A DNA stretch of 64,000 nucleotides from Pseudomonas sp. GM78 (GTDB taxonomy: Bacteria > Pseudomonadota > Gammaproteobacteria > Pseudomonadales > Pseudomonadaceae): positions 1 through 64,000 of the forward strand of contig NZ_AKJF01000094.1 in NCBI RefSeq assembly GCF_000282475.1, in the 5' to 3' direction. Positions 31,031 through 64,000 of the stretch are shown here, one piece after another; positions within the stretch are counted from its first letter, which is position 1, and each line of letters starts with the position of its first letter. Under the pieces are notes generated by a model that saw only the letters and a program-made list of their open reading frames with translations, was not told the DNA's origin and did not search any database. A program made the position numbers and the translations under genes.

Positions 31031-32038
31031 TCAATCCAGCAGCGCCTTCAAGTCCTCGTACAACGCCTCGGGAATCTGCACCCCTTCCACCAGGCTGCGC
31101 GCTCGCGCCTCGTAGCGTCGCTGCGACGGCAAGCGCGCGCCCTGCCCTTCGATTCCCTGGAACAACACTTCGGCCCTGGCCAGGTGCTCGTGGGTTGCAT
31201 CGCCCAAAAAGCGCCGGGGATCCAGGGCGATGATCAGTTCGCCATGATAAGGCGATGACTTGCTGCCCGCGTCGTAAGCCAGTGATTCAGCGCTGGTCAG
31301 GTCGCCAATCAGCGGCCCGGCAATCAACTCCACCATCGCCGCCAGTGCCGATCCCTTATGCCCGCCGAACGTCAGCATCGCGCCGCTGTCGAGCACCACA
31401 CTGGCATCGCTGCTCGAATGGCCTTGCGCATCCACGCCCCAACCTTCGGGAATCGCCTTGCCGGCACGTCGATGCAGCTCGATATCGCCGCGTGCGATGG
31501 CGCTGGTGGCAAAATCGAATACAAAAGGCTCTCGCCCTGCACGCGGCCAGCCAAAGGCAATGGGATTAGTGCCGAATAGTGGCAAGTGCCCCCCGGCCGG
31601 CGCCACCCAGGCATGGCTCGGATTACACGCCAACGCGACCAGGCCGGCCTGGGTCAGTTGCTCGATCTCCACCCATAACGCCGAAAAATGCACACAGTGA
31701 TTGATTGCCAGCGCGGCAATCCCGTTGGCACGGGTTTTCTGCGTCAACAACGCGAGCCCCGCCTGAAACGCCAACTGCGAAAAGCCACCCCCGGCATCCA
31801 CCCGCACAATCGACGGCGCCTGGTCGACGACCCTCGGCTCGGCACTGGCCGACACCTTGCACGCGCGCAGGGAATTGACACACCCAAGAATCCGGTACAA
31901 ACCGTGGGAGGCGCAGCCATCACGCTCACCCGCGATGACCGTCGCCGCCACCGCTTGCGCATGGGCCAGATTAAAACCGTTGTGCAATAGGATCGATTCG
32001 GCCAATTCACGGGCTTCGATCAGGGTCAGTCGGATCAT
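31031..32038 (-). CDS. Malate/L-lactate dehydrogenase family reductase, probably pyrroline-2-carboxylate reductase
   Basis: A 335-residue NAD(P)H enzyme of the Ldh_2 fold: VIAGERDGCASHGLYR near 37-52, AINHCVHFSALWVEIE, PAGGHLPLFGTNPIAFGWPR and GHKGSALAAMVELI. Relatives such as DpkA reduce pyrroline- or piperideine-2-carboxylate to L-proline or L-pipecolate. It would use the pyrroline-2-carboxylate made from 3-hydroxyprolines by aconitase X and the racemase-fold dehydratase. ATG 32038 is chosen because GGGAG lies five to six bases upstream. It is transcribed towards the rest of the cluster. Confidence 0.85.
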   Translation of the reverse strand: MIRLTLIEARELAESILLHNGFNLAHAQAVAATVIAGERDGCASHGLYRILGCVNSLRACKVSASAEPRVVDQAPSIVRVDAGGGFSQLAFQAGLALLTQKTRANGIAALAINHCVHFSALWVEIEQLTQAGLVALACNPSHAWVAPAGGHLPLFGTNPIAFGWPRAGREPFVFDFATSAIARGDIELHRRAGKAIPEGWGVDAQGHSSSDASVVLDSGAMLTFGGHKGSALAAMVELIAGPLIGDLTSAESLAYDAGSKSSPYHGELIIALDPRRFLGDATHEHLARAEVLFQGIEGQGARLPSQRRYEARARSLVEGVQIPEALYEDLKALLD

Positions 32039-32131
32039 ATTCATCTCCCAGGACAGACCGGTCAGGGTGATCCGGTCGAAGCCACCTGGCTTGATGCATT
32101 TTTGCCCCTGGTGTGACGAAATCGGCATAGC

Positions 32132-49185: not shown

Positions 49186-50502
49186 TCAGACCTTGGGATT
49201 CCTGACGTAGCGCATCACCACAAAACAGGCGATCAGGATCATCGGTGCGATGGACAACATGCCCATGTAGCTGGTCCCGCTGACGTCGTTGATCTTGCCC
49301 ACCATCACCGGCGCGACCATGCCACTGAGCTGGCCGATGGAGTTGATGGCCGCCGTGCCGCTGGCGATCGCCAGCCCCGAGAAGGTCGATTGCGGAATCG
49401 TCCAGAAAATCGGGATCGCGATGAAGGTGCCTGCCGTGGCCAGCACCAACGCCGCCATCATGGCCCAGGATGAATCGGAGAACAGGCAGGCCAGCAGGTA
49501 CCCCAGGGCCGCCAGCAACAGGCACATCACCAGGTACTTCTTGCGCTCGCCGGTGCGGTCCGAGAGCCGGGTCAGCCAGATCATGCCGATGCACGCCACG
49601 ATGTAGGGCAGCGATGACAACATGCCGACCCAGAACACGCTTTGCACGCCGGACGATTTGATCAGGTGCGGCATCCAGAAATTCAGGCCGTAGGAAGCGG
49701 TCTTGATCACGAAGTAGATCAACGCCATGATCGCCACTTCCCGCGTCAGCAACACCCGCCACAATGACCCCAATACCGGCTTCTGGTTCTTCTTGTCATG
49801 CTCCAGGTTCGCCGCCAGCAGGTCCTTCTCGCCCCGGCTCAGCCACTTGGCCGATTCGATGTCCCGATCGAGCTTCCACAGCACCAACAGACCCAGCACC
49901 ACACAGGGCAAGCCGGACATCAGGAACAGCCAGTGCCAACCGGCCAGGCCGAGCACGCCGTCCATCGTACCCAACAGAATCCCGGCCGCCGGACCACCCA
50001 GTGCCCCCGCGAGCGGTACCGACAGGAACCACAGCCCGTTCATCTTCGCCAGGTGCTTTTTCGGGAACCAGCACGCCAGGTAGAACAGGATCGCCGGGCC
50101 AAAACCGGCTTCCATCACGCCAATCAGGAATCGCAAGAAGTACAGCGTGTATTGGGTGTAGGCGAACATCATCGCCGCCGTGGCCAGGCCCCAGGAGACC
50201 ATGATCCGGCAGATCCAGGCGGGTGCACCGTAGCGTTTCAGGCCCAGGCTGCTAGGGACTTCGAACAGGACGTAGCCAATGAAAAACATGCTCGCCGCCA
50301 GGCCATAGGCCGCGTCGGTCAAGCCCAGTTCCTGCTGCATCTGGGTTTTGGCGAAACTGATGTTGATCCGGTCAAAATAGGAAAACAGAAAGCAGATGAT
50401 GGCCAGCGGCATGATGCGCCAGGCCACTCGCCGATAGAGCAGAAGCTCGTTGATCGTTTCTTCGCTGCGCGCAACCGAGATTGCACCAGTCATGGCAACC
50501 AT
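49186..50502 (-). CDS. MFS transporter, anion:cation symporter (ACS) family
   Basis: A 438-residue carrier of the tartrate/phthalate-type ACS family: FLFSYFDRINISFAKTQMQQELGLTDAAYGLAASMFFIGYVLFEVPS is the classic N-terminal pattern. ATG 50502 follows GGAGAA. It belongs to the operon with the hexapeptide protein, CoA-transferase and lyase genes, and so probably takes up an organic acid. Confidence 0.9.
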   Translation of the reverse strand: MVAMTGAISVARSEETINELLLYRRVAWRIMPLAIICFLFSYFDRINISFAKTQMQQELGLTDAAYGLAASMFFIGYVLFEVPSSLGLKRYGAPAWICRIMVSWGLATAAMMFAYTQYTLYFLRFLIGVMEAGFGPAILFYLACWFPKKHLAKMNGLWFLSVPLAGALGGPAAGILLGTMDGVLGLAGWHWLFLMSGLPCVVLGLLVLWKLDRDIESAKWLSRGEKDLLAANLEHDKKNQKPVLGSLWRVLLTREVAIMALIYFVIKTASYGLNFWMPHLIKSSGVQSVFWVGMLSSLPYIVACIGMIWLTRLSDRTGERKKYLVMCLLLAALGYLLACLFSDSSWAMMAALVLATAGTFIAIPIFWTIPQSTFSGLAIASGTAAINSIGQLSGMVAPVMVGKINDVSGTSYMGMLSIAPMILIACFVVMRYVRNPKV

Positions 50503-50567
50503 GATGTTTCTCCATTGTTGTAATTATTGGAGAGAGGCACGTCCTCAAGGACGTTGCTCAAAGGGGT

Positions 50568-51092
50568 TTAGCGGATTCGTACCAGTTTGTCTTTGTAAAC
50601 CTGACCCTTGGTCACGTAGTCCCGGGCGTTACGGTGCATGCCGGCGATGGCTTCAGGTGTGAGCTCGCGCACGACCTTGGCCGGCGCACCCAGAATCAAC
50701 GAGTTGTCCGGGAACACCTTGCCCTCGGTGACAATCGCTCCGGCGCCAACCAGGCAGTTCCTGCCGATTACCGCCCCGTTGAGCACGACCGCCTGAATCC
50801 CGATCAGCGCGCCATCGCCGATGGTGCAACCATGCAACATGGCCTGGTGCCCGATGGTGACCCCCTCGCCTACCGTCAGCGCAAATCCGGGGTCGGCGTG
50901 CAGCACCGCACCTTCCTGCACATTGCTGTGTTGGCCGATGCGAATCGGTTCGTTGTCCCCGCGCAGCACGGCTTGGGGCCAGACGCTGACGCCCTGTTCG
51001 AGGGTGACATTGCCGATGACGGTGGCATCCTCGGCGACGAAGGTTTCAGCGTGAATGGCAGGAATGAGCGTGTCGAATTGATAGATAGCCAT
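50568..51092 (-). CDS. Gamma-carbonic-anhydrase-like hexapeptide-repeat protein (YrdA/CaiE type)
   Basis: A 174-residue left-handed beta-helix protein with repeated [LIV]-G-x4 hexapeptides. The three metal-binding histidines of gamma-carbonic anhydrases are kept (AVLHAD, TIGHQAMLHGC). Such proteins are often found beside CoA-transferases (as CaiE beside CaiB), possibly assisting CoA or cofactor chemistry; real carbonic anhydrase activity is not guaranteed. 12 bases downstream of the CoA-transferase gene. Confidence 0.88.
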   Translation of the reverse strand: MAIYQFDTLIPAIHAETFVAEDATVIGNVTLEQGVSVWPQAVLRGDNEPIRIGQHSNVQEGAVLHADPGFALTVGEGVTIGHQAMLHGCTIGDGALIGIQAVVLNGAVIGRNCLVGAGAIVTEGKVFPDNSLILGAPAKVVRELTPEAIAGMHRNARDYVTKGQVYKDKLVRIR

Positions 51093-51104
51093 GGCAGATT
51101 CCCC

Positions 51105-52295
51105 TCAAGCCGCAACGTCGGTTTTCAGGACGCCCGCCGCACACAGTTCGGCAATGTGTTCATCGCTGTAACCCAGCTCGCGCATGACCTTGTGGGTGTG
51201 TTCGCCGATGCGCGGAATCGATCGGCGCGCCTGCAGGCGTTCGCCATCCAGGGACAACGGCAGCAAGGGCATGGCGGTGAACGTTCCGTCTTCCAGCTCA
51301 AGATTGGCCAGGCCGCCGCTTTGCAGCAGATGCGGATCTTCGAACAACTCCTCCGGCCGACGGATCGGCGCAAACGGAATGCTGTTGGCCTCAAGCTCCA
51401 CAGCCAGTGCCTGGGCATCCATGCTGGCAAAGACTTCAGCCAGGTGAGCCAGCAATCGTGGCCGTTGGAGCACGCGATCGTTGTTGGTGGCAAGGCTCTG
51501 GTCGTCGAGCAATGCGGTCTGGCCCAGCACCTGGCACAAGGCGTTCCACTGCCCTTCGCCGGTGGCCGCCACGAACATCTGCTCACCGCCCGCGAACTCG
51601 AACACGTCGTAGATGGCCCACGCACTGATGCGGTTCGGCATCGGCGCAGCCGCCTGGCCGGTCACGGCGTACTGCTGCATATGTTGCGCCGCGAGCAATA
51701 CGCAGTTTTCGTAAAGCGCGCTTTGCACCTCGCGGCCAACGCCGCTGACGTTACGATCGTTGAGCGCGGCGAGCACGCCGATGGCCCCGAACATGCCGCC
51801 CATGATGTCGTTCACCGAGCTGCCGGCACGCAAAGGCCGGCCGACCGGGCCGGTCATGTAGGCCAGGCCAGCCATCATCTGCACCACTTCATCCAGGGCC
51901 AGGCGGTTGTCGTACGGGCCGTTGAGAAAGCCTTTGTGCGATGCATAGATGATGCGCGGATTACGCTCGCGAATCGCTGCGTAACCAAAGCCCAGTTCCT
52001 GCATGCGACCGGGTTTGAAGTTCTCGATGAACACGTCAGCCGTGTCGATGAGCTCCAGCACGGCTTCACGGCCTTGCGCGGTATTGACGTCGATGGCGAC
52101 GCATTGCTTGTTGCGGTTGAAGGTGCGGAAAAATCCGGCACCGGCGCCCAGCAGACGGCGTGTGCCATCGCCACGGGTCGGTTCGATCTTGATCACCTCG
52201 GCACCGAGGTCACCAAGGATCATCCCGCAGGTCGGCCCCATCACCATGTGAGAAATTTCGACGACACGAATGCCGTCCAAGGGAAGTCTGGACAT
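51105..52295 (-). CDS. Class III CoA-transferase (CaiB/BaiF family)
   Basis: A 396-residue CoA-transferase. LDGIRVVEISHMVMGPTCGMILGDLGAEVIKIEPTRGD is the N-terminal signature, and the catalytic Asp163 is in SSVNDIMGG. It would move CoA to a carboxylic acid, activating it for the lyase encoded just upstream on the same transcript. ATG 52295 has GGAGAA upstream; the frame before it is not supported. Confidence 0.92.
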   Translation of the reverse strand: MSRLPLDGIRVVEISHMVMGPTCGMILGDLGAEVIKIEPTRGDGTRRLLGAGAGFFRTFNRNKQCVAIDVNTAQGREAVLELIDTADVFIENFKPGRMQELGFGYAAIRERNPRIIYASHKGFLNGPYDNRLALDEVVQMMAGLAYMTGPVGRPLRAGSSVNDIMGGMFGAIGVLAALNDRNVSGVGREVQSALYENCVLLAAQHMQQYAVTGQAAAPMPNRISAWAIYDVFEFAGGEQMFVAATGEGQWNALCQVLGQTALLDDQSLATNNDRVLQRPRLLAHLAEVFASMDAQALAVELEANSIPFAPIRRPEELFEDPHLLQSGGLANLELEDGTFTAMPLLPLSLDGERLQARRSIPRIGEHTHKVMRELGYSDEHIAELCAAGVLKTDVAA

Positions 52296-52320
52296 TGTTG
52301 TTCTCCTCGATAGGGCAGGC

Positions 52321-53250
52321 TTAAACGCGGCTGGCAGCGGGCGCGTAATTGAGTGGCAGGCCGGCGCGGGCAATGCAGCCGTAGAGGCTCTCGCCTGGCA
52401 ACGCCTCACGCAGCACATCCCGTGAGGCGATCAGTGCGGCCAGGTCGATGCCGGTGTCGTAGCCCATGCCTTGCAGCATGAACACCAGGTCTTCGGTGAC
52501 GGTGTTGCCGGACGCACCCGGTGCGAACGGGCAACCGCCCAAACCGGCCAGTGACGAATCGAGCTCGGTAATCCCCTGCTGCACGGCCACCAGGCTATTG
52601 GCCAGTGCCAGGCCTCGGGTGTCATGGAAATGCGCGGCCCTGAGTTTGTCGCCAGCGATGGCCCGCACGGCCTGCAAGGTCGTCGCAACCTGGCCCGGAT
52701 TGGCGTAGCCCGTGGTGTCGCCAAGCGAAACCAGGTCACAACCGGCCTCCAGCACATGACCGGTCAACTCGCAGAGGTCGCTCAATGGCACATCACCCTG
52801 GCGGGTGCAGCCGAAGGCCACCGACATTCCGGCAATCACCTGCACGTTGTGCAAGCCCGACTCGGTGCGCAGCTGGCACATCCGCCCCAGCTCCTCGACC
52901 ATCTCCAGCGGCGTGCGGCGCACGTTGGCCAGGCTGTGGGCCGAGCTGACAGAAACCGGTGCAATGATGCGGTGGGCACCGGACTCAAGCGCATCACGGC
53001 AGCCGCGCAGGTTGGGTGCCAGTACGGTGACGACCAGATCCGGGTAGCTCAAGGCATGCGCCACGACCTCCTTGGCATCGGCCATCTGTGGCAGCAGTTT
53101 GGCGGGGACGAAGGAGGCGACTTCCATGTAACGCACGCCCGCCGCATAGGCGGCATCGATCCATTGGCGCTTGGCGGTGGTGGGCATGATGGCTTGAAGG
53201 CTTTGCAAGCCATCGCGCATACCGACTTCGTTGATTGTTATTGTTGTCAT
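52321..53250 (-). CDS. HMG-CoA-lyase family enzyme
   Basis: A 309-residue TIM-barrel lyase of the HMGL/DRE-TIM family: NEVGMRDGLQSL at the N-terminus with the metal-binding Asp, AAHFHDTRGLALANS with two metal histidines, and the lyase signature LAGLGGCPFAPGASGN with the catalytic Cys. It should split a 3-hydroxy-3-methyl-acyl-CoA (HMG-CoA to acetyl-CoA and acetoacetate, or citramalyl-CoA to acetyl-CoA and pyruvate). No enoyl-CoA hydratase is nearby, so the acid taken up may already carry the hydroxyl group. Confidence 0.9.
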   Translation of the reverse strand: MTTITINEVGMRDGLQSLQAIMPTTAKRQWIDAAYAAGVRYMEVASFVPAKLLPQMADAKEVVAHALSYPDLVVTVLAPNLRGCRDALESGAHRIIAPVSVSSAHSLANVRRTPLEMVEELGRMCQLRTESGLHNVQVIAGMSVAFGCTRQGDVPLSDLCELTGHVLEAGCDLVSLGDTTGYANPGQVATTLQAVRAIAGDKLRAAHFHDTRGLALANSLVAVQQGITELDSSLAGLGGCPFAPGASGNTVTEDLVFMLQGMGYDTGIDLAALIASRDVLREALPGESLYGCIARAGLPLNYAPAASRV

Positions 53251-53315
53251 CAAAAGGCTCTCACGGTCTGAAGCGTGGTTTCAGATTAGAGAGCCATCGG
53301 TACAGCGAAAAGACG

Positions 53316-54257
53316 TCATTTACGGGCCGATCCATCGTCAACCACGATGGATGATTGACGCGGTGGCGCGCGCAACAGCAAATGGTCCAGCAGCCTTCGC
53401 GCCGACAGCGATAGCGCATCCCGATCACGTACGCAGATCACGAACTCACCCAACGCCCACTCATCGGTCAGCGCAATGATGCTTAGGTCAAACAAGCGGG
53501 TGTATCGAGCCACCGCCTCCAGCGGAAACACCGCCAGCCCCAGACCGAACTGCGCCAGGCGAAACGCTGCATCGAACGACGACACATAGGAGCGAAAACG
53601 CAGCTCCTGGCCGTGTTGCGCGGCTTCTTCGCGCATGAAGTTGTTGAGCGTGGCGAACGCGGACAATCCCAGGTGATCGAACGCCAGCGTCTCGGCGAAC
53701 GCGATGCTGGAGCGACCCGCCAAAGGATGGTTGGCACCCACCACGACCGCCAGATGGTCTTGCCGATACGGCAGAAACTCCAGGTCCCCCACCGCCATCG
53801 AACGTCGACAAATGCCCAGGTCGGCATTGCCCTCAGCCACCCCTCGCACCACATCAGGACTGAAGCGCTCCTCGATGTCGACCTGGATCCTCGGATGCTC
53901 CAGCATGAAATCCGACAGTTCCTCCGGCAGGAACTCCATGATCGATGAGATGTTGGCCAATACCCGAACATGCCCGCGGGCGCCTTCGGCGTACTCGCTG
54001 AGTTCGCTGTCCAGCCGCTCCATCGCCCGCGTCAACGACCGCGCGTGCCGCAGCAGTGCGACACCCGCCGGTGTCGGTTCAACCCCGCGTTTGCTGCGCT
54101 TGAGCAACGGCGTACCGAAACGCGCCTCGATATCGGAAATCCGCTTGCTGACCGCCGACGGCGCGATAAACGCCCGCTCGCTGGCGCGTGCGATGGTGCC
54201 CTCATCGCAGACCAGGATGAACAGGCGCAAGGAAAAGTGATCCAGGTGTTGCATCAT
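53316..54257 (-). CDS. LysR-family regulator of the CoA-transferase/lyase operon
   Basis: A 313-residue LysR protein (MQHLDHFSLRLFILVCDEGTIA, FIAPSAVSKRISDIEARFG, effector domain from RGHVRVLANISSIMEFLP). It is just upstream and on the same strand as the lyase gene, a 65-base gap, so it may be first in the operon or have its own promoter in the 140-base gap before it. It likely responds to the acid consumed. Confidence 0.88.
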   Translation of the reverse strand: MMQHLDHFSLRLFILVCDEGTIARASERAFIAPSAVSKRISDIEARFGTPLLKRSKRGVEPTPAGVALLRHARSLTRAMERLDSELSEYAEGARGHVRVLANISSIMEFLPEELSDFMLEHPRIQVDIEERFSPDVVRGVAEGNADLGICRRSMAVGDLEFLPYRQDHLAVVVGANHPLAGRSSIAFAETLAFDHLGLSAFATLNNFMREEAAQHGQELRFRSYVSSFDAAFRLAQFGLGLAVFPLEAVARYTRLFDLSIIALTDEWALGEFVICVRDRDALSLSARRLLDHLLLRAPPRQSSIVVDDGSARK

Positions 54258-54397: not shown

Positions 54398-55405
54398 CTA
54401 ATCCACCTGCGCTTTAAACGCGTCGTACGCCGATAACGGCAGGCTGATGCCCTCGCGGACCGCACGGGCATAGGCCTGCTCTTTGGCCTTGCCCGGCAGG
54501 TAAACGCCCAAGGCTTCAAGCCGCGTCATCTGCTCGCCCAGCCGTGAGGCAAAGCACTCGTCCAGCAACCTGGGAGCAATGCCGATCACCAGCATGCCAG
54601 CCCCTGGGGATTCGCTGCCGGCACGGAAATCTGCTGCATCCAACGACCAATTGGCCCCCGTCAAACCCGCCGCGAGCACCTCGACCATCAACGCGATGTT
54701 GGCGCCGCGACCGCCCCCGAATGCCAGCAACGTCCCGTGCAGTGCCTCCCGCGCGCTGCGCGTTTCATTGCCTTGTGCATCAACCGCCCAGCCTGCCGGT
54801 ATCGCCTCCCCCGCTTCAGCGGCCCGAAGGAGGTTTACGTAGGCCGTGGCGCTGCTGGCCTGGTCAATCGCCAGTAAACGACCCGCAGCACTGGCGGCGG
54901 CAAATGCGATGGGGTTGGTGGAGTACAGCGGCCGGCTCTGGCCCGCCACGGTGAGCAGCGGTGAGCCATTGGTGAACGCCAACGCGACCAGCCCCTCGCG
55001 CGCCAGGCGACGGGTGTAATAGCCCAACTCGCCACAGGTGAACGCGTTGAACTGCGCAAACAGGGCGATACCCAGTTGATGCGCATTGCTGCACAGCACT
55101 GGGAAAGCGCGATCGAACCCCAGTTGCGCGATGCCTTGGGCCGCGTCGCACCGGATCATGGCCGGCGCGACCTGGGTCACGATGGGCTCGGCAGCCGTGG
55201 CGATTCGGCCGGTGGCAAAGCCGCTGAGGTAGTCAGGCAAATGGCCGAAACCGACTTCGTGTTGGCCATGGGCCTGGGCTGATACCGTGGCGTTGGCAAG
55301 CGCCGAGGCCACGGCGTCGCTGGTGCCGTGGGCCAGGCAGAGCTGTTGTGCGAAGGTGGTGGCATCGGTCAGGGACAAGCGCTTGTCGGGTTTGTCGTCG
55401 TCCAT
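54398..55405 (-). CDS. Malate/L-lactate dehydrogenase family oxidoreductase
   Basis: A 335-residue Ldh_2-fold enzyme, a distant paralogue of the one at 31031: AQAHGQHEVGFGHLPDYL, FAQFNAFTCGELGYYTRRLAREG, NGSPLLTVAGQSRPLYSTNPIAFA and FGGGRGANIALMVEVLA. NAD(P)-dependent reduction of a 2-oxo or cyclic imino acid is expected. It follows the ABC transporter of the demethylase operon on the same strand after a 103-base gap holding a hairpin, so it may be its last gene. Confidence 0.85.
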   Translation of the reverse strand: MDDDKPDKRLSLTDATTFAQQLCLAHGTSDAVASALANATVSAQAHGQHEVGFGHLPDYLSGFATGRIATAAEPIVTQVAPAMIRCDAAQGIAQLGFDRAFPVLCSNAHQLGIALFAQFNAFTCGELGYYTRRLAREGLVALAFTNGSPLLTVAGQSRPLYSTNPIAFAAASAAGRLLAIDQASSATAYVNLLRAAEAGEAIPAGWAVDAQGNETRSAREALHGTLLAFGGGRGANIALMVEVLAAGLTGANWSLDAADFRAGSESPGAGMLVIGIAPRLLDECFASRLGEQMTRLEALGVYLPGKAKEQAYARAVREGISLPLSAYDAFKAQVD

Positions 55406-55451
55406 GGTGGCTTCAGTGTTCTCGGATTGTAGGTGTGCCGCAGCTTGAGAA

Positions 55452-55483
55452 CCTGCAGGAGCGGCTTTGGGCGCTCCTGCAGG
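55452..55483. repeat. REP-like hairpin between the reductase and binding-protein genes
   Basis: CCTGCAGGAGCG and its exact complement CGCTCCTGCAGG around an 8-base loop. It lacks a T-run, so processing or attenuation is more likely than full termination. Confidence 0.75.
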
Positions 55484-55508
55484 ATTTGTGTCGTTCAGTT
55501 GATTAACT

Positions 55509-56342
55509 TTACTGAATCATCCTCGGCTCACCCACCTGCGCAGCCTCGCGGTCCAGGCCAAACGAGGCGAGGATTTCAGCGATTTCGCCCGAGGCATGCA
55601 AGGCCTGGATGTTCTTGCCCAGCGCCTCGCCCAAGGCTGCGTTGGACTTGGTGTACGGGAAGGCGCTCTGCCCAGGCTCAAGCGTGGCCTTGACCCGTTG
55701 ATCGGGCTCGGACACCTTGATGCTCTTGCCGGGGTACGCGCCCTTCTGCTGCGATGAAACCCCCACCGCGAAGCTGTCCGCGCCGACCTGGATGCGCTTG
55801 GACGCCAGGTCCTGGGCCATGGCCACCGGGTTCGGGTAGAGCACCAGATTATCGCCAAAGGCCTTCTTCAAATCGTCCACCCACAGGTAGCCCTGCACGG
55901 TGCCGATGCGCTTACCGTCCAGTTCGGAAATCTTCGTGTAGCCCTCATCCGAAATAATGCCCATCACGTCCAGGTACAACGGTGCCGACAACCCCAACGC
56001 CTTGCTGCGCTCTGCCGTGCGGTACCAGTCACCGATGCCGACATCGGCGCGCTTTGACACCACCGCCTGCACCACAGCTGCGGTGTCCACCACCATGGTC
56101 TTGACCTTCAGGCATTCGCGCTCGGCGATGCGCTTGATGATCTCGCCATCCACGCCGCTCAACTGGTTGTTCGGCCCCGGTATCGAGTAAGGCGGGAACA
56201 CATACGCCGCCACGGTCAGCACACCCGGCGTAATGGTTTCAAACTGGTTCGCCGGGGTGCATTCGGCCAGGGCGTACGGCGCGCCGGCCAGGGTCGAGCA
56301 CAAGAACATCCAACGGGTAAAGTGTTTGAATGAGCGAGTCAT
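55509..56342 (-). CDS. ABC transporter, periplasmic binding protein (amino-acid/betaine type)
   Basis: A 277-residue family-3 solute-binding protein with a signal peptide (MTRSFKHFTRWMFLCSTLAG, cleaved after YALA) and the binding-protein pattern LTVAAYVFPPYSIPGPNNQLSGVDGEIIKRIAERE. ATG 56342 has AAAGG upstream. The mature protein begins ECTPAN. In this operon the ligand is probably a methylated proline or similar betaine. Confidence 0.88.
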   Translation of the reverse strand: MTRSFKHFTRWMFLCSTLAGAPYALAECTPANQFETITPGVLTVAAYVFPPYSIPGPNNQLSGVDGEIIKRIAERECLKVKTMVVDTAAVVQAVVSKRADVGIGDWYRTAERSKALGLSAPLYLDVMGIISDEGYTKISELDGKRIGTVQGYLWVDDLKKAFGDNLVLYPNPVAMAQDLASKRIQVGADSFAVGVSSQQKGAYPGKSIKVSEPDQRVKATLEPGQSAFPYTKSNAALGEALGKNIQALHASGEIAEILASFGLDREAAQVGEPRMIQ

Positions 56343-56400
56343 GAAATCACCTTTGCAATAAGAGAGCAGCAGCCGAAAACGGCGTGAGTGGCATTTGTTG

Positions 56401-57060
56401 TTATGGCTGGCTGGGTGCCAGTCTTTTTTCCAGCGCTGCCACGCCCAGGGTCGCCGGGGCACAGACAGCGGCATACATCAAACCGGCCAGGATCAGCACC
56501 GGCATGTACTCAAACGTGGAGGAACCTATGGAGGACGCCCGGCTGACGATTTCTGGTAGGGCGATGGTGAAACACAGCGACGAGGCCTGGAACATCATGA
56601 TCGAGAACCCCAGCAGCGACGGCAGCGCTACCCGCAAGGCCTGAGGCAGGATCACAAAACGCAGGGCGTCGAACCGGTTGAGGCCGATCACCTCAGCGGC
56701 CTCGGTTTGCCCTGGGGCCACCGCCTCGATGCCACCGCGAATGATTTCACTGGTGTAGGCCGCCGTGCAGTACGCCATGGCCAGCGCGGCAGCCCAGAAC
56801 GAGGTCAAGGTCAGGTTGACGCTGGGCAGGCCAAAGTAAAAATACTGCAGCAGGATCAACGCCGGCGCACCGCGCCCAAGCTCCACGATGACCAAAGACG
56901 GGTAACGCAACCAGCGGCTCGGGGCCGAGACACCGAGTGCCAGCACCAGCCCCAGTACAATACCCAGGCCCAGGCTCACCGCCGTGACCTGCATCGACAG
57001 CACAAAGCCCTTCCACAACTCCGGCAGCCATTGGGCCCACATCGTCAGCAGTTCGCTCAT
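56401..57060 (-). CDS. ABC transporter permease, amino-acid type
   Basis: A 219-residue HisM-type permease: LPELWKGFVLSMQVTAVSLGLGIVLGLVLALG and the EAA-like loop (EAAEVIGLNRFDALRFVILPQ). Its ATG (57060) overlaps the stop of the preceding permease gene by four bases. Confidence 0.9.
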   Translation of the reverse strand: MSELLTMWAQWLPELWKGFVLSMQVTAVSLGLGIVLGLVLALGVSAPSRWLRYPSLVIVELGRGAPALILLQYFYFGLPSVNLTLTSFWAAALAMAYCTAAYTSEIIRGGIEAVAPGQTEAAEVIGLNRFDALRFVILPQALRVALPSLLGFSIMMFQASSLCFTIALPEIVSRASSIGSSTFEYMPVLILAGLMYAAVCAPATLGVAALEKRLAPSQP

Positions 57061-57698
57061 CGGGCAATCCTCTGTTTCAACGTGGCCGAGAGCCAACGGG
57101 AGAACAAGGCCACCGGCACGCTGAGCACCAGGTAAACCACCGCCGCCGCGCTGTAGACGCTCAGGCCCTGAAAGGTTTGTTGTGAAACCTGATAGGCCTG
57201 GAAGCTGATATCGCCGACGCCAATGGTCGAGGCCACGGCCGAATCCTTGAGCAGGCCAATGGCGTAGGTGGCCGAGGTGGGAATGGCGATGCGCACCAAC
57301 TGCGGTAACACCACATCGAAAAACCGTTGCGATGCCGACAGGTTAAGCACATAGGCGGCTTCGAACTGCCCGCTGGGAATCGCCGCGAAAGCACCGCGGT
57401 ACACCTCGGACATGTGCGCCGCCGTAATCAGCCCCAGGCCGACCACTGCCGCGGTAAACGGCGACAGGCTGATATAGCCGCCACCGATGCCAAAGAAGAT
57501 GAAAAACAGCCAGACAATCGGCGGAATGGAGCGCAGGGTCAGCACCAGCATGGCCGCCAGAAAACGCAGGGGCTTGACCCTGGACAGGCGCAGGGCACAG
57601 ATCGGAAACCCCAGCACCACGCCGACGCAGAAGGCGAGCACGGTGACGGCAATGGTCCACGGCACACCGTTCAACAGCATCATCAGGATGTCTTGCAT
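57057..57698 (-). CDS. ABC transporter permease, amino-acid type
   Basis: A 213-residue permease of the same system (GVPWTIAVTVLAFCVGVVLGFP; EAAYVLNLSASQRFFDVVLPQ). It overlaps its neighbours on both sides, which shows one transcript with the ATPase. Confidence 0.9.
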   Translation of the reverse strand: MQDILMMLLNGVPWTIAVTVLAFCVGVVLGFPICALRLSRVKPLRFLAAMLVLTLRSIPPIVWLFFIFFGIGGGYISLSPFTAAVVGLGLITAAHMSEVYRGAFAAIPSGQFEAAYVLNLSASQRFFDVVLPQLVRIAIPTSATYAIGLLKDSAVASTIGVGDISFQAYQVSQQTFQGLSVYSAAAVVYLVLSVPVALFSRWLSATLKQRIAR

Positions 57699-58507
57699 CA
57701 GCGATTCCTCACGGCCTGGAGGAACTGGATCACCCGTTCATGCCCGGGCTGACGCATCACTTGCTGGCTCGGCCCCTGCTCGATGATTCGCCCCTCGGCC
57801 ATCACCACCACGCGGTCGGACACGGTTTCGGCGAAGTGCATTTCGTGGGTCACGACGATCATCGACATGCCTTCGCAGGCGAGCTCTTTCATCACCGCCA
57901 GCACCTCCAGGCCCAGCTCGGGGTCCAGCGCCGAGGTCGGCTCATCGAACAGCATCAATTCAGGGTCCAATGCCAGGGCGCGGGCGATGGCGATCCGTTG
58001 TTGCTGGCCACCGGAGCAGCGCGCCGGATAATGCTGGGCCTTGTCGGCCAACCCCACGCGTTCGAGCAGTTGCATGGAGCGGGCGTCGGCCTCCTTGGCG
58101 CTGCGGCCCAAGGTACGGATTTGCGCCAGGCTGACATTGCGCAGTACCGTCAGGTGCGGAAAAAGATTGAACGACTGGAACACCATGCCAATGCGCCGGC
58201 GCAGCTTGAGCAGCTCTGTACGGGGCAACGTCTTGCCAGCTTCGATGTGCACGCCATCCATACTGACCCGGCCCTGGGTCGGCGGCTCCAACTGATTGAT
58301 ACAGCGCAGCAAGGTACTTTTGCCCGAACCACTGGGCCCGATAATGGCCACCACCTCGCCCTTGCTCATTTCAAAACACACGTCGTGCAGGACGGGATAG
58401 GGGCCAAACTGTTTATGAATGCCCTCCAGGCGCAAGAACGGTTCGGCGCTGGCCACTGGGCGCGGCGCCAAGGAGGGTGCGGTTTCGATCACGGTCATAC
58501 TGCTCAT
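57698..58507 (-). CDS. ABC transporter ATPase, amino-acid type
   Basis: A 269-residue ATPase: Walker A GPSGSGKST near 55-63, signature CSGGQQQRIAIARAL (C in place of the usual L), Walker B LMLFDEPTSALDP and the switch His in VVTHEMHFA. It has about 20 extra residues at the N-terminus. It powers the permease pair encoded after it. Confidence 0.92.
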   Translation of the reverse strand: MSSMTVIETAPSLAPRPVASAEPFLRLEGIHKQFGPYPVLHDVCFEMSKGEVVAIIGPSGSGKSTLLRCINQLEPPTQGRVSMDGVHIEAGKTLPRTELLKLRRRIGMVFQSFNLFPHLTVLRNVSLAQIRTLGRSAKEADARSMQLLERVGLADKAQHYPARCSGGQQQRIAIARALALDPELMLFDEPTSALDPELGLEVLAVMKELACEGMSMIVVTHEMHFAETVSDRVVVMAEGRIIEQGPSQQVMRQPGHERVIQFLQAVRNR

Positions 58508-58520
58508 GGTTTTGCTCCAG

Positions 58521-59828
58521 CTATCGATCGCCGTCGACTAAGGGCGTGCGCGAAAGTTTTATCGGCCCGTTGGCGCTGATCAGCACCTGTTCTTCGAGCT
58601 TCACCCCTTCCCCACCGCCTTGTTCACCGATGTAACTTTCCACCGACACCACCATGTTTTCCTCGAACAGGCCGTCGTAACCCCACTCGGCGAAATCCAC
58701 GGCGTAGGCGACGCTGGGGTACTCGTCCACCAGGCCGACGCCGTGCAGCATCATCATGTAGCGGTTGTGCTCAAATCGCTTGGGCACAGGCCAACAGTGT
58801 TCGGCAAACTCGCGAAAGGACAGGCCCGGGCGCAGCAGTTCGACGTTGTGGTTGATCTGCTGCGAGGCGATTTCCAGCAAGTCGCGCTGGGTCGTTGTCG
58901 GCGCCTTGCCGGGGCAGACGAAGCTGCGAGAGATGTCCGAAAGGTAACCACCGGGCCCGACCATGTCGGTGTCAAAACAGACCATCTCACCGGCCTTGAT
59001 GACCTTGTCGGTGGCGTCCTGGAACCACGGGTTGGTGCGCGGCCCGGAGCTGAGCAAGCGGCTTTCGGCCCATTCCCCGCCGTGCGCGACATTAGTCCCG
59101 TGCATGATGCTCCACAGCTGATTTTCAGTGACCCCCGGCACCAGGCTTGTGCGCATCCGGGCAATGGCCAGATCGCACACGCCCATGGACACCCGGTGGC
59201 TGGCAACCTCTTCAGCCGATTTGATCAAGCGTGCCTGCTCCATCAACGGCTGCGCATCGAACAGTTCAATGCCCTTATGCGTCAGGCGCTGCGCGCCCCA
59301 AGGGTCACAACGGTCCACCGCCAGGCGGCGATTGCCGCCACCGTGGCGGGCCATCAGGTCCGCCACTTCCTGGGCCCAGCGCTCGGCTTTTTCCTGCACC
59401 CGGGGGCCAGCAAGAAAATACAGCCAGGGAATCGCCGGGCGAATTTCATCGATGGTTTCCACGTGCTCGCTGTTGTGCCGGCTGCTGGTGAACTCGAACA
59501 GCACCACCGGGCCGTCGGTGGCCACGAACACATAGCGGCTGGGCGAGTGCATCACCCACAAACCGAGGTTATTGGTGTCGGTGGCATAGCGAATATTGAT
59601 CGGATCGGCCAACAGAATGCCGGCGTAGTCCTGGGCGCGCAGTTGCTCGCGAATGCGCTCCAGGCGGTAATGACGCAGGGCTTTGCGGTCGATGGCGGTA
59701 TACGCATCGAGTAACGCCGTGTCGACCGGCGCCAGGGCATGTTCAGTGACCTTGGCATCGCTGCGAAAGCGCAGGTCGCGTTCGGTTAACGCTGTGAGCA
59801 GCTCAATGGAATCAGAACCCGTATGCAT
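58521..59828 (-). CDS. M24 (creatinase-fold) protein closely resembling DMSP lyase DddP
   Basis: A 435-residue pita-bread-fold protein. The N-terminal creatinase domain has NIRYATDTNNLGLWVMHSPSRY; the catalytic part has GGEWAESRLLSSGPRTNPWF, CFDTDMVGPGGYLSDISRSF (metal aspartates), His362 in MLHGVGLVDEYP, and KLEEQVLI. These blocks are very close to those of DddP, and the DddP tyrosine five residues before that His (Tyr357) and aspartate six after it (Asp368), implicated in catalysis, are kept. It lies 13 bases from the ABC ATPase gene and after the StcD-like gene, so a betaine-type substrate is likely rather than DMSP or a peptide. A perfect palindrome lies upstream. Confidence 0.85.
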   Translation of the reverse strand: MHTGSDSIELLTALTERDLRFRSDAKVTEHALAPVDTALLDAYTAIDRKALRHYRLERIREQLRAQDYAGILLADPINIRYATDTNNLGLWVMHSPSRYVFVATDGPVVLFEFTSSRHNSEHVETIDEIRPAIPWLYFLAGPRVQEKAERWAQEVADLMARHGGGNRRLAVDRCDPWGAQRLTHKGIELFDAQPLMEQARLIKSAEEVASHRVSMGVCDLAIARMRTSLVPGVTENQLWSIMHGTNVAHGGEWAESRLLSSGPRTNPWFQDATDKVIKAGEMVCFDTDMVGPGGYLSDISRSFVCPGKAPTTTQRDLLEIASQQINHNVELLRPGLSFREFAEHCWPVPKRFEHNRYMMMLHGVGLVDEYPSVAYAVDFAEWGYDGLFEENMVVSVESYIGEQGGGEGVKLEEQVLISANGPIKLSRTPLVDGDR

Positions 59829-59851
59829 GCAACAACCTCCGCTGGGAAGAG

Positions 59852-59867
59852 TTTGATGTTCATCAAA
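59852..59867. promoter_or_regulatory. Palindrome TTTGATGTTCATCAAA, FNR/ANR-type box
   Basis: A perfect 16-bp palindrome whose core TTGAT-GTTC-ATCAA equals the ANR/FNR consensus TTGAT-N4-ATCAA. It is centred 31 bases before the M24 start codon, close for a class II activation site, so a repressor operator is equally possible. Confidence 0.6.
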
Positions 59868-59954
59868 TCAATCAGACCAACTGTCGGGGCAGTAACTAAA
59901 GGCTTCTAAATCAGGTGATGGCTGTCTTTTATTGTTGTGGGTGACACACGACAG

Positions 59955-61991
59955 CTAGAGGTCCTTGACCAGCCGCAGGGCATCGTAGATGGCCGCATGG
60001 GTATTGCGCGACGCCACGGCATCACCAATGCGGAACAACTGGAAGCGCCCTTCGGGGTTGCTCGCAACGGTTTGCGGCTTGCCGACAATCAGGTCCATGT
60101 ACTCCACGGCGCCTTCGTTGCTGGCCAAGGGCTTGAGTTCGAAATACAGATCGTCCAGCGGCCGGGTGCCGTGGTTGACCACCACCTGATCCACCAGGCG
60201 TGTTTTAGTCAGGTCGCTGTAATCGGTGCCGATCGTAGCCAGCAATTGGTCGCCTTGTTTCTCCACAGCCTTGAGCCGGTAGGTGACGGTAAAGGTGGTG
60301 TCCAGTTGCTGCAACGAGCGCATATAGGGCACCAGGTTCATGCCCATGACTTCCGGCGCGAACGAGCGGTCGGGGGTCATGATTTCAGTCTTGGCGCCAC
60401 TGCGGGCGATGAATTCGGCAGCTTGCAGGCCGGCGTGGTCGCCCGCATCGTCGTACACCAGCACATTGCGCCCAGGCTTCACGTCGCCGGAAATAATGTC
60501 CCAGCTTGAAACCAGGAATTGATTGCCGTGTTCCAGCACTTCGGTGTGCGGCATGCCCCCGGTCGCCACGATCACCACGTCGGCATTTTCATCGAGAACA
60601 ATCGCGGTGTCGGCCCAGGTGTTGAAGTGAAACGTCACGCCAAGGCGCTCGCATTGCGCCATGCGCCAATCGATGATGCTGATCATTTCCTTGCGCCGCT
60701 CGGACTGCGCGGTCAGGCGAATCTGTCCGCCGGGTTTGTCCGCCAGCTCATACACCACCACCTCGTGGCCGCGCTCTCCCGCCACCCGTGCCGCTTCCAG
60801 GCCACCAGGGCCGGCGCCGACAATCACCACTTTGCGCTTGCGCGCAGCCTTGGGTATTTCATGAGGCATGGTGGTTTCACGCCCGGTCGCGGCGTTGTGG
60901 ATGCAGTAGGCAGCGCCAGCGTTGTAAATGCGGTCCAGGCAATAGTTGGCGCCCACGCAAGGGCGGATATCGTCTTCACGGCCTTCGATGATCTTGCGCA
61001 CGATATGCGGGTCGGTCATGTGCGCGCGGGTCATGCCGACCATGTCCACCAACCCCGAGGCAATGGCATGACGCGCCGTGGCCACGTCGGGAATTTTCGC
61101 TGCATGGAAGGTCGGGAAGCCGGTCAGCGCCTTGATTTCGCCGGCGAAGTCCAGGTGCGGGGCATTGCGCATGCCCTGGATCGGGATGATGTCGGTCAGC
61201 CCGGCATCGGTGGCGATGTTGCCGCGGATCACATTAAGGAAGTCGATCATGCCACTGTCTTTCAACAGTTGGGAGATCTGCAAGCCCTCCTCTTTTTGCA
61301 GGCCCCCGGCGAGGACTTCGTCCCCGGTGTAGCGAATGCCGACGATAAATTCCGGGCCCACGCGTTTGCGAATGGCCGTGAGCACATCGAAGGTAAAGCG
61401 CAGGCGGTTTTGCAGCGAGCCGCCGTACGGCCCTTCCAGTTCGTTGGTCAGTGGCGACCAGAACTGGTCCATCAAGTGGCCGTAGGCTTGCAGCTCGATG
61501 CCGTCCAGGCCGGCGGCTTTCATGCGTTCGGCGGCATCGGCGTAGTCGCCAATGATGCGGTCGATGTCCCACTGTTCAAGCTGCTTGGGGAAGGCGCGGT
61601 GTGCGGGTTCCTGATTGTGGGAGGGCGACACCACCGGTAGCCAGTCGCCTTTGTCCCAGCGGGTACGCCGGCCCAGGTGAGTGAGCTGGATCATCACCGC
61701 CGCACCATGTTCGTGGCACTCGTCGGTCAGGTCTTTCATCCAGCCGACCACTTCGTCCTTGTAGGCCAGAATGTTGTTGAACACGGGCGGGCTGTCACGG
61801 GAGATCGCGGCGGAGCCAGCGGTCATGGTCATGGCTACACCGGCTTTGGCACGTTCAACGTGGTAGGCCCGGTAGAGCTTTTTCGGCATCCCGTCTTCCG
61901 GGTAAGCCGGTTCGTGGGAGGTGGTTATGATGCGGTTACGCAGGGTCAAATGCTTGAGGCGATAAGGCTGAAGTAGCGGATCGTTTTTCAT
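59955..61991 (-). CDS. stcD: NADH:flavin oxidoreductase, StcD-like N-methylproline demethylase
   Basis: A 678-residue two-part flavoenzyme like trimethylamine dehydrogenase: an N-terminal FMN TIM-barrel (LKHLTLRNRIITTSHEPAYPEDG; HLGRRTRWDKGDWLPVV), a four-cysteine [4Fe-4S] region (CVGANYCLDRIYNAGAAYC, near 336-354), and a C-terminal nucleotide-binding half (VVIVGAGPGGLEAARVAGERG). The N-terminus and many internal blocks agree with rhizobial StcD, which removes the methyl group of N-methylproline in stachydrine (proline betaine) breakdown. No Rieske betaine demethylase is in view, so the entry substrate may be N-methylproline itself. It is first in its operon, divergent from a TetR gene. Confidence 0.88.
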   Translation of the reverse strand: MKNDPLLQPYRLKHLTLRNRIITTSHEPAYPEDGMPKKLYRAYHVERAKAGVAMTMTAGSAAISRDSPPVFNNILAYKDEVVGWMKDLTDECHEHGAAVMIQLTHLGRRTRWDKGDWLPVVSPSHNQEPAHRAFPKQLEQWDIDRIIGDYADAAERMKAAGLDGIELQAYGHLMDQFWSPLTNELEGPYGGSLQNRLRFTFDVLTAIRKRVGPEFIVGIRYTGDEVLAGGLQKEEGLQISQLLKDSGMIDFLNVIRGNIATDAGLTDIIPIQGMRNAPHLDFAGEIKALTGFPTFHAAKIPDVATARHAIASGLVDMVGMTRAHMTDPHIVRKIIEGREDDIRPCVGANYCLDRIYNAGAAYCIHNAATGRETTMPHEIPKAARKRKVVIVGAGPGGLEAARVAGERGHEVVVYELADKPGGQIRLTAQSERRKEMISIIDWRMAQCERLGVTFHFNTWADTAIVLDENADVVIVATGGMPHTEVLEHGNQFLVSSWDIISGDVKPGRNVLVYDDAGDHAGLQAAEFIARSGAKTEIMTPDRSFAPEVMGMNLVPYMRSLQQLDTTFTVTYRLKAVEKQGDQLLATIGTDYSDLTKTRLVDQVVVNHGTRPLDDLYFELKPLASNEGAVEYMDLIVGKPQTVASNPEGRFQLFRIGDAVASRNTHAAIYDALRLVKDL

Positions 61992-62038
61992 ATCGGTCTC
62001 GCAGACAGGTCATCAGGCACGCCGACAATATGCCCCTG

Positions 62039-62075
62039 TGTACACCAGTGTCAATACTCTTGACACTGGTGTACA
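62039..62075. promoter_or_regulatory. Operator: perfect 16+16 bp inverted repeat between stcD and the TetR gene
   Basis: TGTACACCAGTGTCAA, spacer TACTC, then TTGACACTGGTGTACA, exact complements. It sits 48 bases from the stcD start and 42 from the regulator start, so one bound TetR pair could shut both promoters. TTGACA in the right arm may double as a -35 box. Confidence 0.88.
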
Positions 62076-62116
62076 GTTGACCACGAAAAGCAAATTCAGA
62101 CAGGGAAGAAATGCCC

Positions 62117-62764
62117 ATGAAAGCAACCACCTCAACGGCGGAACAGGCAGGCCGAGGTTCACTGGAAGGCTGGCTTAATGCGGCCTACGAGAGTCTGACC
62201 GAGTCAGGCGTCGATGCCGTGCGAGTGATGCCGCTGGCGAAAAAACTGAATTTGTCGCGCACCAGCTTCTACTGGTTTTTCGAAGACCGCGATGCCTTGC
62301 TCGCAGCCTTGATCGAGCAATGGAAAAACAAGAACACCTTCAACCTGGTGAGCAAATCCCAGGCCTATGCCGAATCCATCACCGAGGCGATTCTCAACGT
62401 CTTCGACTGCTGGCTGAACAGCGAATTGTTCGACTCGCAGTTCGAGTTCGCCATGCGCAGTTGGGCGCTGCAATCACCGGAAGTGGCGCAGGAAATCGGC
62501 GAGGCTGACGCGCAGCGCGTCGAGGCATTGCGGCAGATGTTCGACCGTTTCGGCTTTGAACACGATGCTGCGATTACCCGCGCCCGTACGATCTACCTCA
62601 CGCAAATCGGCTACATCAGCATGAAAACCCGGGAACCCCTGGCCCAGCGCATGCGCTACATCCCCGAGTACCTGAAGATTTTCACCGGCAGGGAGCCGGA
62701 AGCCCGTGAGCTGGAGCGCTTTTATCAGCGCAACGGTTTTAGCGGTGCCGATTTGAACGTCTAA
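62117..62764 (+). CDS. TetR-family regulator of the demethylase operon
   Basis: A 215-residue TetR protein. The helix-turn-helix is at about 15-60 (LNAAYESLTESGVDAVRVMPLAKKLNLSRTSFYWFFEDRDALLAAL) and the rest is the helical ligand domain. ATG 62117 has GGAAG at good distance; ATG 62111 is two codons earlier and too close to it. Divergent from stcD across the long palindrome at 62039, its likely operator. Confidence 0.88.
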   Translation: MKATTSTAEQAGRGSLEGWLNAAYESLTESGVDAVRVMPLAKKLNLSRTSFYWFFEDRDALLAALIEQWKNKNTFNLVSKSQAYAESITEAILNVFDCWLNSELFDSQFEFAMRSWALQSPEVAQEIGEADAQRVEALRQMFDRFGFEHDAAITRARTIYLTQIGYISMKTREPLAQRMRYIPEYLKIFTGREPEARELERFYQRNGFSGADLNV

Positions 62765-63179
62765 AAGCATCGACTCACAAGCCGGTTTCTATGAACTTGC
62801 GCGCGGCCCACCTTGTTTTCGAGCCTGTCTCGGCCTTCCCAATACCTGACTGAATTGGCTGCATGAGGCAGTCCTGGAAGGACGCCAGGGCGATTCGCTC
62901 ATTTGCAGCGTGCTCTTTTGGCCGATTTCTGTTTGTCGTCACCGTCAGCTTTGGGTCTTTTTCTGCCGGCCACAAGCCTTAGATCGGCTTGAAAGCGGCT
63001 GTAGGTATGCGCTGTGGAAATGAAAGATTGAATCGAAATAACAATTTTCACATCGATTTCAAATACGTCACTGGAGGATTGGCATTCATACCTACGCTAG
63101 TTTCGGGGGGTTCCGTATTTCGGGAAGGCAGTTGGAGGGAATTTCTCGAAATACTCTCGAAAATGCAAAGGAGTTCGAA
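62765..63179. other. Intergenic region before the sulfatase gene
   Basis: A 415-base gap with a drop in GC from about 63000. Short frames here (62775-62975 minus, 62989-63183 plus) have no recognisable product. A strong AAAGGAG lies at the right end for the sulfatase start. Otherwise I see nothing certain. Confidence 0.5.
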
Positions 63180-64000
63180 ATGAACCACAACATTTTCTCT
63201 GCGGTGTTCGCAGCCACAGCGCTGCTGTCGGCGATCGCACTGCCTGGATTATCCCTGGCGGACGATAAAACGGTGCCAAACATACTGGTTATCATGGGCG
63301 ACGATATCGGCTGGTCGAACATCGGTGTCTACAACCAGGGCATGATGGCCGGCAGAACACCCAATCTGGACACCCTTGCCTCCGAAGGCATGCGCTTCAC
63401 CGACTACTATGCCGAAGCCAGTTGCACGGCAGGCCGTGCCAACTTCATTACCGGCGAACTACCGATCCGTACCGGCATGACTACGGTGGGCCAGGCCGGC
63501 TCACCCATCGGTATTCCCTCCCAGGCGGTGACGATTGCCACCGTGCTCAAGTCCATGGGTTATTCCACCGGTCAGTTCGGCAAGAACCACTTAGGCGACC
63601 TGAACGAGTTCCTGCCCACCGTGCATGGTTTCGACGAGTTTTTCGGCTACCTGTATCACCTCGACGCCATGGAGGATCCGGCCCACCCCAACTACCCGCA
63701 AGCGCTGCTGCCCAAGGTTGGCCCGCGCAACATGGTCCACAGTTGGGCGAGCACCACTGATGATGCAACCGTAATGCCGCGCTGGGGCAAAGTGGGCAAA
63801 CAGAAGATCGAAGACGCGGGCACCCTCTACCCTGACCGAATGAAAACTGTCGACGACGAAATCCGTGACAAGGCATTCAATTTCATCGACAAGGCCAAGC
63901 AGGACAACAAACCCTTCTTTGTCTGGCTCAATCCGACACGCATGCACATCGTCACCCACCTCTCCGACAAGTACCAGGCCATGCGCAATGCAGAAAATGG
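63180..64000 (+). CDS. Arylsulfatase, exported (partial, cut by the window edge)
   Basis: The first 273 residues of a sulfatase. There is a signal peptide (MNHNIFSAVFAATALLSAIA, cleaved near LSLA), the metal-binding VIMGDDIGWSNIG, and the active-site motif CTAGR with Cys82, the residue converted to formylglycine. CxAxR rather than CxPxR is an accepted variant. FGKNHLGD (Lys/His) and the KPFFVWLNPTRMH region follow. ATG 63180 has AAGGAG upstream. It should release sulfate from sulfate esters in the periplasm. The C-terminus and any sulfatase-maturing gene lie outside the window. Confidence 0.92.
   Translation, partial: MNHNIFSAVFAATALLSAIALPGLSLADDKTVPNILVIMGDDIGWSNIGVYNQGMMAGRTPNLDTLASEGMRFTDYYAEASCTAGRANFITGELPIRTGMTTVGQAGSPIGIPSQAVTIATVLKSMGYSTGQFGKNHLGDLNEFLPTVHGFDEFFGYLYHLDAMEDPAHPNYPQALLPKVGPRNMVHSWASTTDDATVMPRWGKVGKQKIEDAGTLYPDRMKTVDDEIRDKAFNFIDKAKQDNKPFFVWLNPTRMHIVTHLSDKYQAMRNAEN

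Follow-up and report, generated by a model that had tools for sequence, protein, structure and literature searches.

The stretch analysed here, which we call the window, comprises 64,000 nucleotides of Pseudomonas sp. GM78 (contig NZ_AKJF01000094.1, positions 1 to 64,000). In it, the gene of an M24 metalloenzyme resembling DddP, a lyase of dimethylsulfoniopropionate (DMSP), lies directly behind the gene of a StcD-type demethylase, in a row with genes for an ATP-binding cassette (ABC) importer and an Ldh_2-fold reductase. What would a DddP-like protein do in such a place? Our tentative answer, to which we give a probability of about 0.4, is that the genes form a TetR-controlled catabolic operon leading from an N-methylated proline-like compound to L-proline, in which the M24 protein acts as a beta-eliminating lyase, followed by the reductase and then by StcD.

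Conservation of the operon as a unit

All eight genes named in the initial annotation, with their coordinates, were confirmed by an open reading frame (ORF) check of the window. Seven of them run head to tail on the minus strand, and the TetR gene is divergent on the plus strand. With the likely starts, the gaps along the minus strand are 126, 13, -1, -4, 58 and 103 nt, which are compatible with a single transcript. The 398 genomes of the same genus were searched with the window M24, and 75 of them matched at E 1e-50 or better. Ten, including the own genome, matched at 81–100% identity (the nine others at 81–99%), and the order TetR, StcD, M24, ATPase, two permeases and periplasmic solute-binding protein (SBP), determined by tblastn as were the classing and slot counts below, was identical in all ten. 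Because the block from TetR to SBP is intact in all nine other genomes, the arrangement is beyond chance. We regard all eight genes as real and as one functional unit. The Ldh_2 gene comes next in seven of the ten; it is lacking in L084 and L086, and L085 stops at a contig edge. The claim of co-transcription under one TetR protein is thus favoured by the gaps of -4 to 126 nt, but is weakened for the last gene by its lack in 3/10 genomes (one of them at the contig edge) and by a hairpin in front of it (55452..55483, strand not assigned), which we take to be REP-like (repetitive extragenic palindrome). Judging from the gene layout, Ldh_2 is likely co-transcribed with the rest despite this hairpin. 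The operon looks accessory, because a search of G264, a genome labelled as the same species, with the window M24 gave no match.

The initial annotation had suggested a neighbourhood survey of the M24 and StcD pair. From 161 loci examined, 158 were classed, giving 21 with both StcD (at least 55% identity) and M24, 98 with M24 only and 39 with StcD only. At least three of the four importer genes were present in 20 of the 21 loci with the pair, in contrast to 2/98 M24-only loci, of which 21 are shorter than 15 kb, so that "absent" may mean "not covered" there, and 0/39 StcD-only loci. The loci are mutually related and the counts are not independent events; the classing and slot counts also hold repeat strains (L156=L085, L158=L086, L203=L037, L200=L088 and L219=L040). 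In the contig scan of the named collection, where the best 80 of 562 matches were taken, the pair was found in Pseudomonas, Burkholderia, Paraburkholderia and one Acetobacteraceae bin. TetR, StcD, M24 and the ABC genes are also present in P. capeferrum WCS358 (L154).

Demethylase, regulator and operator

The StcD gene (59955..61991, minus strand) encodes an oxidoreductase with flavin mononucleotide (FMN) and flavin adenine dinucleotide (FAD) domains. The protein is 77–78% identical to rhizobial StcD across 678 of 678 residues, and the Paracoccus DNA that matches the window gene is annotated as hpbA, N-methyl-L-proline N-demethylase. By sequence, the window StcD is an orthologue-level match to the N-methylproline demethylase, the role described for StcD in stachydrine catabolism (PMC12239276). 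Its Fe-S motif lacks the second cysteine; this is also the case in the StcD paralogue of the own genome (42% identity) and in StcD relatives (the pattern used for the motif had no match in 14 of the 40 listed), and the missing cysteine was therefore dropped as an oddity of the window enzyme. The cluster of this paralogue is presumably dgcAB and the paralogue itself DgcA; no curated model passed for the proteins called DgcA and DgcB.

The TetR-type regulator (62111..62764, plus strand; PF00440) is 62% identical to the TetR protein adjoining stcD of R. etli. Between the TetR and stcD genes lies a perfect 16-bp inverted repeat, TGTACACCAGTGTCAA / TTGACACTGGTGTACA, whose half-sites TTGACACTGGTGTACA stand on the plus strand on the TetR side (62060..62075) and on the minus strand on the stcD side (62039..62054), with a 5-nt spacer; the stcD-side half-site overlaps a -35-like hexamer. 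The motif TTGACAYNNNTGTACA was found with at most one mismatch in all 32 distinct intergenic regions between divergent TetR and StcD genes, from 34 loci of Pseudomonas, Burkholderia-type and rhizobial origin, three loci with non-divergent genes having been omitted. Mononucleotide shuffles reached this result in 0.06% of cases, the motif having been read off the same regions. A second, inverted copy lies within 40 nt in 21 of the 32 regions. In the own genome, exact copies of the operator occur solely at this locus, and a wider regulon of this TetR was rejected on that ground; with up to two mismatches, 27 operator-like matches were counted genome-wide versus 11 for the reversed control. Regulator, operator and demethylase look like one inherited module in these alignments, which argues for a shared inducer, and this would be a stachydrine- or N-methylproline-type compound. 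These results support the initial picture, in which a StcD-type demethylase, a DddP-like M24 protein, an importer and a reductase of imino-acid type are under a single TetR protein, here with its operator.

The gene after StcD was determined for 64 loci (StcD at least 55%). It was M24 in 19, a DMSP_lyase-family cupin in 6, and another query family in 2; in the other 37, the next gene matched none of the queries. With repeat strains removed, M24 would fill the slot in 17/62. One such cupin (L051) scored 184 bits with PF16867, and its five solved matches, all weak, are DMSP lyases. A Paracoccus cluster with hpbA and hpbD also holds a DMSP_lyase-family cupin, together with a P5CR-like gene, electron transfer flavoprotein (ETF) beta, a Rieske gene and a betaine importer. 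The cupin and M24 are unrelated, yet they alternate in the same slot behind StcD, and they occurred together in 0/21 loci with StcD and M24 and in 0/98 M24-only loci.

The DddP-like M24 protein

The protein encoded by the M24 gene (58521..59828, minus strand), the putative lyase, matches PF00557 with 100 bits (cut-off 23). As the initial annotation had noticed, Tyr357, His362 and Asp368 are kept, and they align with Tyr366, His371 and Asp377 of RdDddP. All six metal ligands reported for DddP (Asp295, Asp297, Asp307, His371, Glu406 and Glu421; PMC4108388) are also kept in the alignment, as Asp286, Asp288, Asp298, His362, Glu397 and Glu412. Of 34 aligned DddP-like proteins, 34 have all six ligands and the Tyr, and 29 have the Asp; these residues therefore mark the superfamily, not DddP specifically.

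A plain DddP identity was rejected on the score against the curated DddP model NF043017 (353.5 bits versus a cut-off of 600) and on the phylogeny, in which RdDddP, RlDddP and L149, annotated as dddP, group at 100/100 without the window M24, whose own clade is likewise supported at 100/100. Its identity to the solved DddP enzymes (4b28 and 4rzy) is 32–37%. It is quite improbable that the protein is a lyase of DMSP or of another sulfonium compound, in an operon that handles mixed onium compounds: the kept active-site residues and the two unrelated DMSP-lyase-type families in the slot behind StcD would fit, but the low score and the separate clade do not, and the reductase would be left unexplained. 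In line with the initial statement that no acrylate or DMSP genes are nearby, no acrylate-family model passed its cut-off for any of the 28 window proteins scanned; the TetR protein scored 21.9 bits versus 247 for AcuR. In the same genus, M24 proteins from clusters with Rieske, betaine-importer and hydroxyproline genes (L042, L090 and L091) group with the solved DddP enzymes at 100/100, a grouping which suggests that DddP itself may have come out of betaine catabolism.

DddP-like M24 proteins, common in this genus by the count of 75 genomes above, are frequently named Xaa-Pro peptidases in annotation. In M24 peptidases, a histidine that precedes the first of the metal-binding aspartates serves the reaction, and it is present in the own-genome M24 paralogue (L141); in all 34 DddP-like proteins this region reads PW[FMYL]. 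With Pro-Trp-[Phe/Met/Tyr/Leu] in place of the His, and with the closeness to DddP, a plain Xaa-Pro peptidase (M24B) was rejected; action solely as an Xaa-Pro dipeptidase, which the initial annotation had named as the outcome that would speak against its proposal, is disfavoured by the active-site alignment and by the comparison with solved relatives. A broader hydrolase, like creatinase or ectoine hydrolase, could release N-methylproline that is conjugated as an amide, a peptide or a guanidino compound, and StcD would then demethylate it. Most of the solved M24 relatives listed are hydrolases, including creatinase and DoeA, some DddP-like genes stand by a peptide/nickel-type ABC importer (L046; L043–L045 look alike), and others occur with isochorismatase (L147) or hydantoinase-type genes (L149 and L153). 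Such a hydrolase is a serious rival to the lyase, but we consider it less likely, for the window M24 is nearer to DddP than to the hydrolases, the peptidase-histidine region is PW[FMYL] throughout, and a link to Ldh_2 and OCD reductases, described below, would have no explanation.

The residue layout would also permit two-base chemistry, with Asp368 and Tyr357 at the metal-bound carboxylate, as in an N-methylproline 2-epimerase or racemase, and the enolase superfamily is known to include a proline betaine racemase (PMC5144071). This is very improbable, since several M24 clusters (L037, L088, L147 and L152) already have enolase-family genes, and the reductase link would again remain unexplained.

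DddP-like M24 genes were also seen in other settings. The pSymA locus of S. meliloti (L147, 9251–19714) holds an MttB-type methyltransferase, a DddP-like M24, an isochorismatase, a betaine importer, an enolase-family gene and an Ldh_2 without SHG. A recurrent arrangement in the same genus (L041-type) comprises a Rieske gene, an aldehyde dehydrogenase, a rubredoxin-reductase fusion, a pipecolate-oxidase-like FAD protein, a small EutQ-like cupin, a DddP-like M24 and a BCCT carrier. In a large group from Mesorhizobium and its kin (L195-type), MttB, a dimethylglycine-oxidase-like FAD protein and a DddP-like M24 stand together.

Association with Ldh_2 and OCD reductases

Within the window, the M24 gene adjoins StcD, and the Ldh_2 gene (54398..55405, minus strand; PF02615, 229.7 bits versus a cut-off of 38.8) lies five genes further on. 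After removal of five repeat strains, an Ldh_2 gene within 9 kb or an OCD gene within 7 kb accompanied M24 in 11 of the 17 loci whose M24 is at least 75% identical to that of the window and in 6 of the 15 at 57–75%, that is, in 17/32 loci of the clade. When M24 was less than 57% identical, any reductase type was nearby in 2/82 loci. OCD stands directly behind M24 in eight loci, and in four of these (L161, L162, L168 and L169) the stop and start codons overlap. In L168, OCD is followed by a PutA gene and then by a D-amino acid dehydrogenase-like gene. An actinomycetotal contig of Quadrisphaera (L173) carries the importer (45–67%), a Rieske gene (40%), M24 (59%), Ldh_2 (41%) and a distant StcD-like gene (29%).

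The closest solved relative of the operon Ldh_2 is 1wtj (173 bits), and the fold, the glycine-rich motif and the TNP motif are kept. The SHG and HF-type motifs are catalytic in Ldh_2 enzymes. They are found in DpkA and sulfolactate dehydrogenase, and the two other full-length Ldh_2 proteins of the own genome keep them, whereas the operon Ldh_2 and all eight cluster-associated relatives compared lack them. An Ldh_2 with the canonical motifs is encoded at 31031–32128. The operon Ldh_2 would be a reductase of an N-methyl iminium or a ketimine, and an N-methyl iminium, being already charged, would need no proton donor. According to PMC4113996, OCD and MLD2, to which Ldh_2 corresponds, are superfamilies with pyrroline-2-carboxylate (Pyr2C) reductases serving 3-hydroxyproline dehydratases, and DpkA is described as able to make N-methyl amino acids (PMC6110843).

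Importer and proposed pathway

Domain-model matches place the importer in the polar amino-acid family. It consists of the ATPase (57698..58507), permease 1 (57057..57698), permease 2 (56401..57060) and an SBP of family 3 (55509..56342), all on the minus strand; the likely starts of permease 2 (57060) and of the SBP (56342, in an ORF extending to 56474) were chosen from the homologue L034. A search of the own genome for GbcA/Stc2-type Rieske proteins gave one full-length match (43%) and six partial ones (28–33%); between the full-length one and the StcD paralogue lie about 8 kb. A stachydrine pathway opening with a dedicated Rieske enzyme was rejected on this ground. The importer type and the place of the sole full-length Rieske gene speak for uptake of a tertiary N-methyl amino acid more than for that of a quaternary betaine. 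The initial suggestion of a methylated cyclic amino acid is thus a fair guess, except that its quaternary form is less likely. In that version, the M24 protein would cleave or hydrolyse a quaternary 4-hydroxyproline betaine and pass the product to the demethylase, after which the imino-acid reductase would act. DddP-like genes do recur in hydroxyproline/betaine clusters (L042, L052, L055, L056 and L088), and some of these clusters also have HpbD-like genes and betaine importers. Against this stand the amino-acid type of the importer, the single full-length match to Stc2/GbcA-type Rieske proteins in the genome, the lack in 4-hydroxyproline of a leaving group at the beta position, and the overlap of M24 with the reductase gene in OCD-bearing relatives, and we regard it as improbable.

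For the beta-eliminating lyase that we favour, the substrate, the lyase chemistry and the direction of the reductase are what we infer from this context. The ABC system would import an N-methyl, 3-substituted proline such as N-methyl-3-hydroxyproline, a conceivable product of 3-hydroxystachydrine. With the carboxylate held on the two metals of the M24 protein, Asp368 would abstract the alpha proton, the beta substituent would be expelled, and an N-methyl pyrroline/iminium would result. This would be reduced to N-methyl-L-proline by the Ldh_2-type reductase, or by OCD in the Burkholderia-type relatives, and StcD would strip the methyl group as formaldehyde to give L-proline. A suitable natural compound exists, since 3-hydroxystachydrine, with stachydrine, is said to characterise the Capparidaceae (PMC6464171). 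The order M24, demethylase, reductase of the initial annotation is less likely than M24, reductase, StcD, because the known substrate of StcD is N-methylproline and because M24 overlaps OCD, not StcD, in relatives.

Several points weigh against this pathway. Six of the 17 close M24 relatives have no reductase nearby, and the D-amino acid dehydrogenase-like gene of L168 could itself supply the imine. Among the 98 M24 loci without StcD, 56 have a Rieske, MttB or 2-oxoglutarate (2OG) gene and only 10 a reductase, and the M24 step may be common to Rieske-, MttB-, 2OG- and reductase-type loci alike. The motif loss in Ldh_2 could mean a lost or changed activity. The only tested reaction of DddP is DMSP lysis, which makes dehydration an extrapolation, and the proposed base Asp is missing in 5/34 DddP-like proteins, so that the chemistry cannot be family-wide. 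We know of no substrate or activity for any M24 protein of this clade.

The fixed place of the M24 protein in the StcD/TetR operon, together with the reductases of ketimine type near its closer relatives, suggests a concrete, testable function, and its setting hints at the role on land of the large, unexplained DddP-like family. It is conceivable, but to us doubtful, that the land DddP-like enzymes of the clade act on N-methylated 3-hydroxyproline-type compounds by beta-elimination and represent a fourth fold capable of 3-hydroxyproline dehydration, with the DMSP_lyase-family cupins as their equivalents in the rhizobial stcD operon. If true, two marine DMSP lyase families would have their origin in components of N-methylproline and betaine catabolism, N-methylproline compounds would be tied to the origin of enzymes making dimethyl sulfide at sea, and a new dehydratase fold would be added. 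At the level of listings of the open-access literature, we recognised no paper that puts StcD together with an M24 or DddP-like gene; PMC11306105 contains both "stachydrine" and "dddP", in two passages that do not connect them.

The minus-strand neighbours at 49186–54257 (an MFS carrier, a gamma-carbonic-anhydrase-like protein, a CoA-transferase, an HMG-CoA-lyase-like protein and a LysR regulator, labelled by eye) are apparently a separate acid-catabolic operon, and a sulfatase gene (PF00884) begins at 63132–63998 and continues beyond the window end.

Comparison with known systems

The nearest known system is the rhizobial/Paracoccus stcD-hpbA operon, which shares with the window the demethylase (77–78%), the TetR protein (62%) and the motif of the operator. 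Both also have an ABC importer and a gene of reductase type, which is P5CR-like in several clusters of the known system and Ldh_2 in the window. The two differ in the gene after stcD, a DMSP_lyase-family cupin there and M24 here, and in the importer, of glycine-betaine type there and of amino-acid type here. A Rieske gene is nearby in one locus of the rhizobial/Paracoccus type (L246), whereas the own genome has no second full-length Rieske of that kind. DddP (RdDddP 4b28 and RlDddP 4rzy) is separated from the window M24 by an identity of 32–37%, by the curated cut-off, by a supported clade of its own and by the DMSP genes, none of which was recognised in the window. DpkA/LhpH, the NADPH-dependent piperideine/pyrroline-2-carboxylate reductase of the Ldh_2 (MLD2) family, resembles the operon Ldh_2 in fold, glycine-rich motif and TNP motif, but has the SHG and HF-type motifs that the latter and its eight cluster relatives lack. 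According to PMC5144071, 3-hydroxyproline dehydratases are known in three folds. These are the proline racemase fold (LhpG), aconitase X (LhpI) and the enolase fold (LhpJ), all unrelated to M24, and dehydratases of the proline-racemase and aconitase-X types are encoded separately in the window. What these dehydratases would share with the proposed M24 pathway, as far as they are described in PMC5144071 and PMC4113996, is the chemistry and the superfamilies of the partner reductases.

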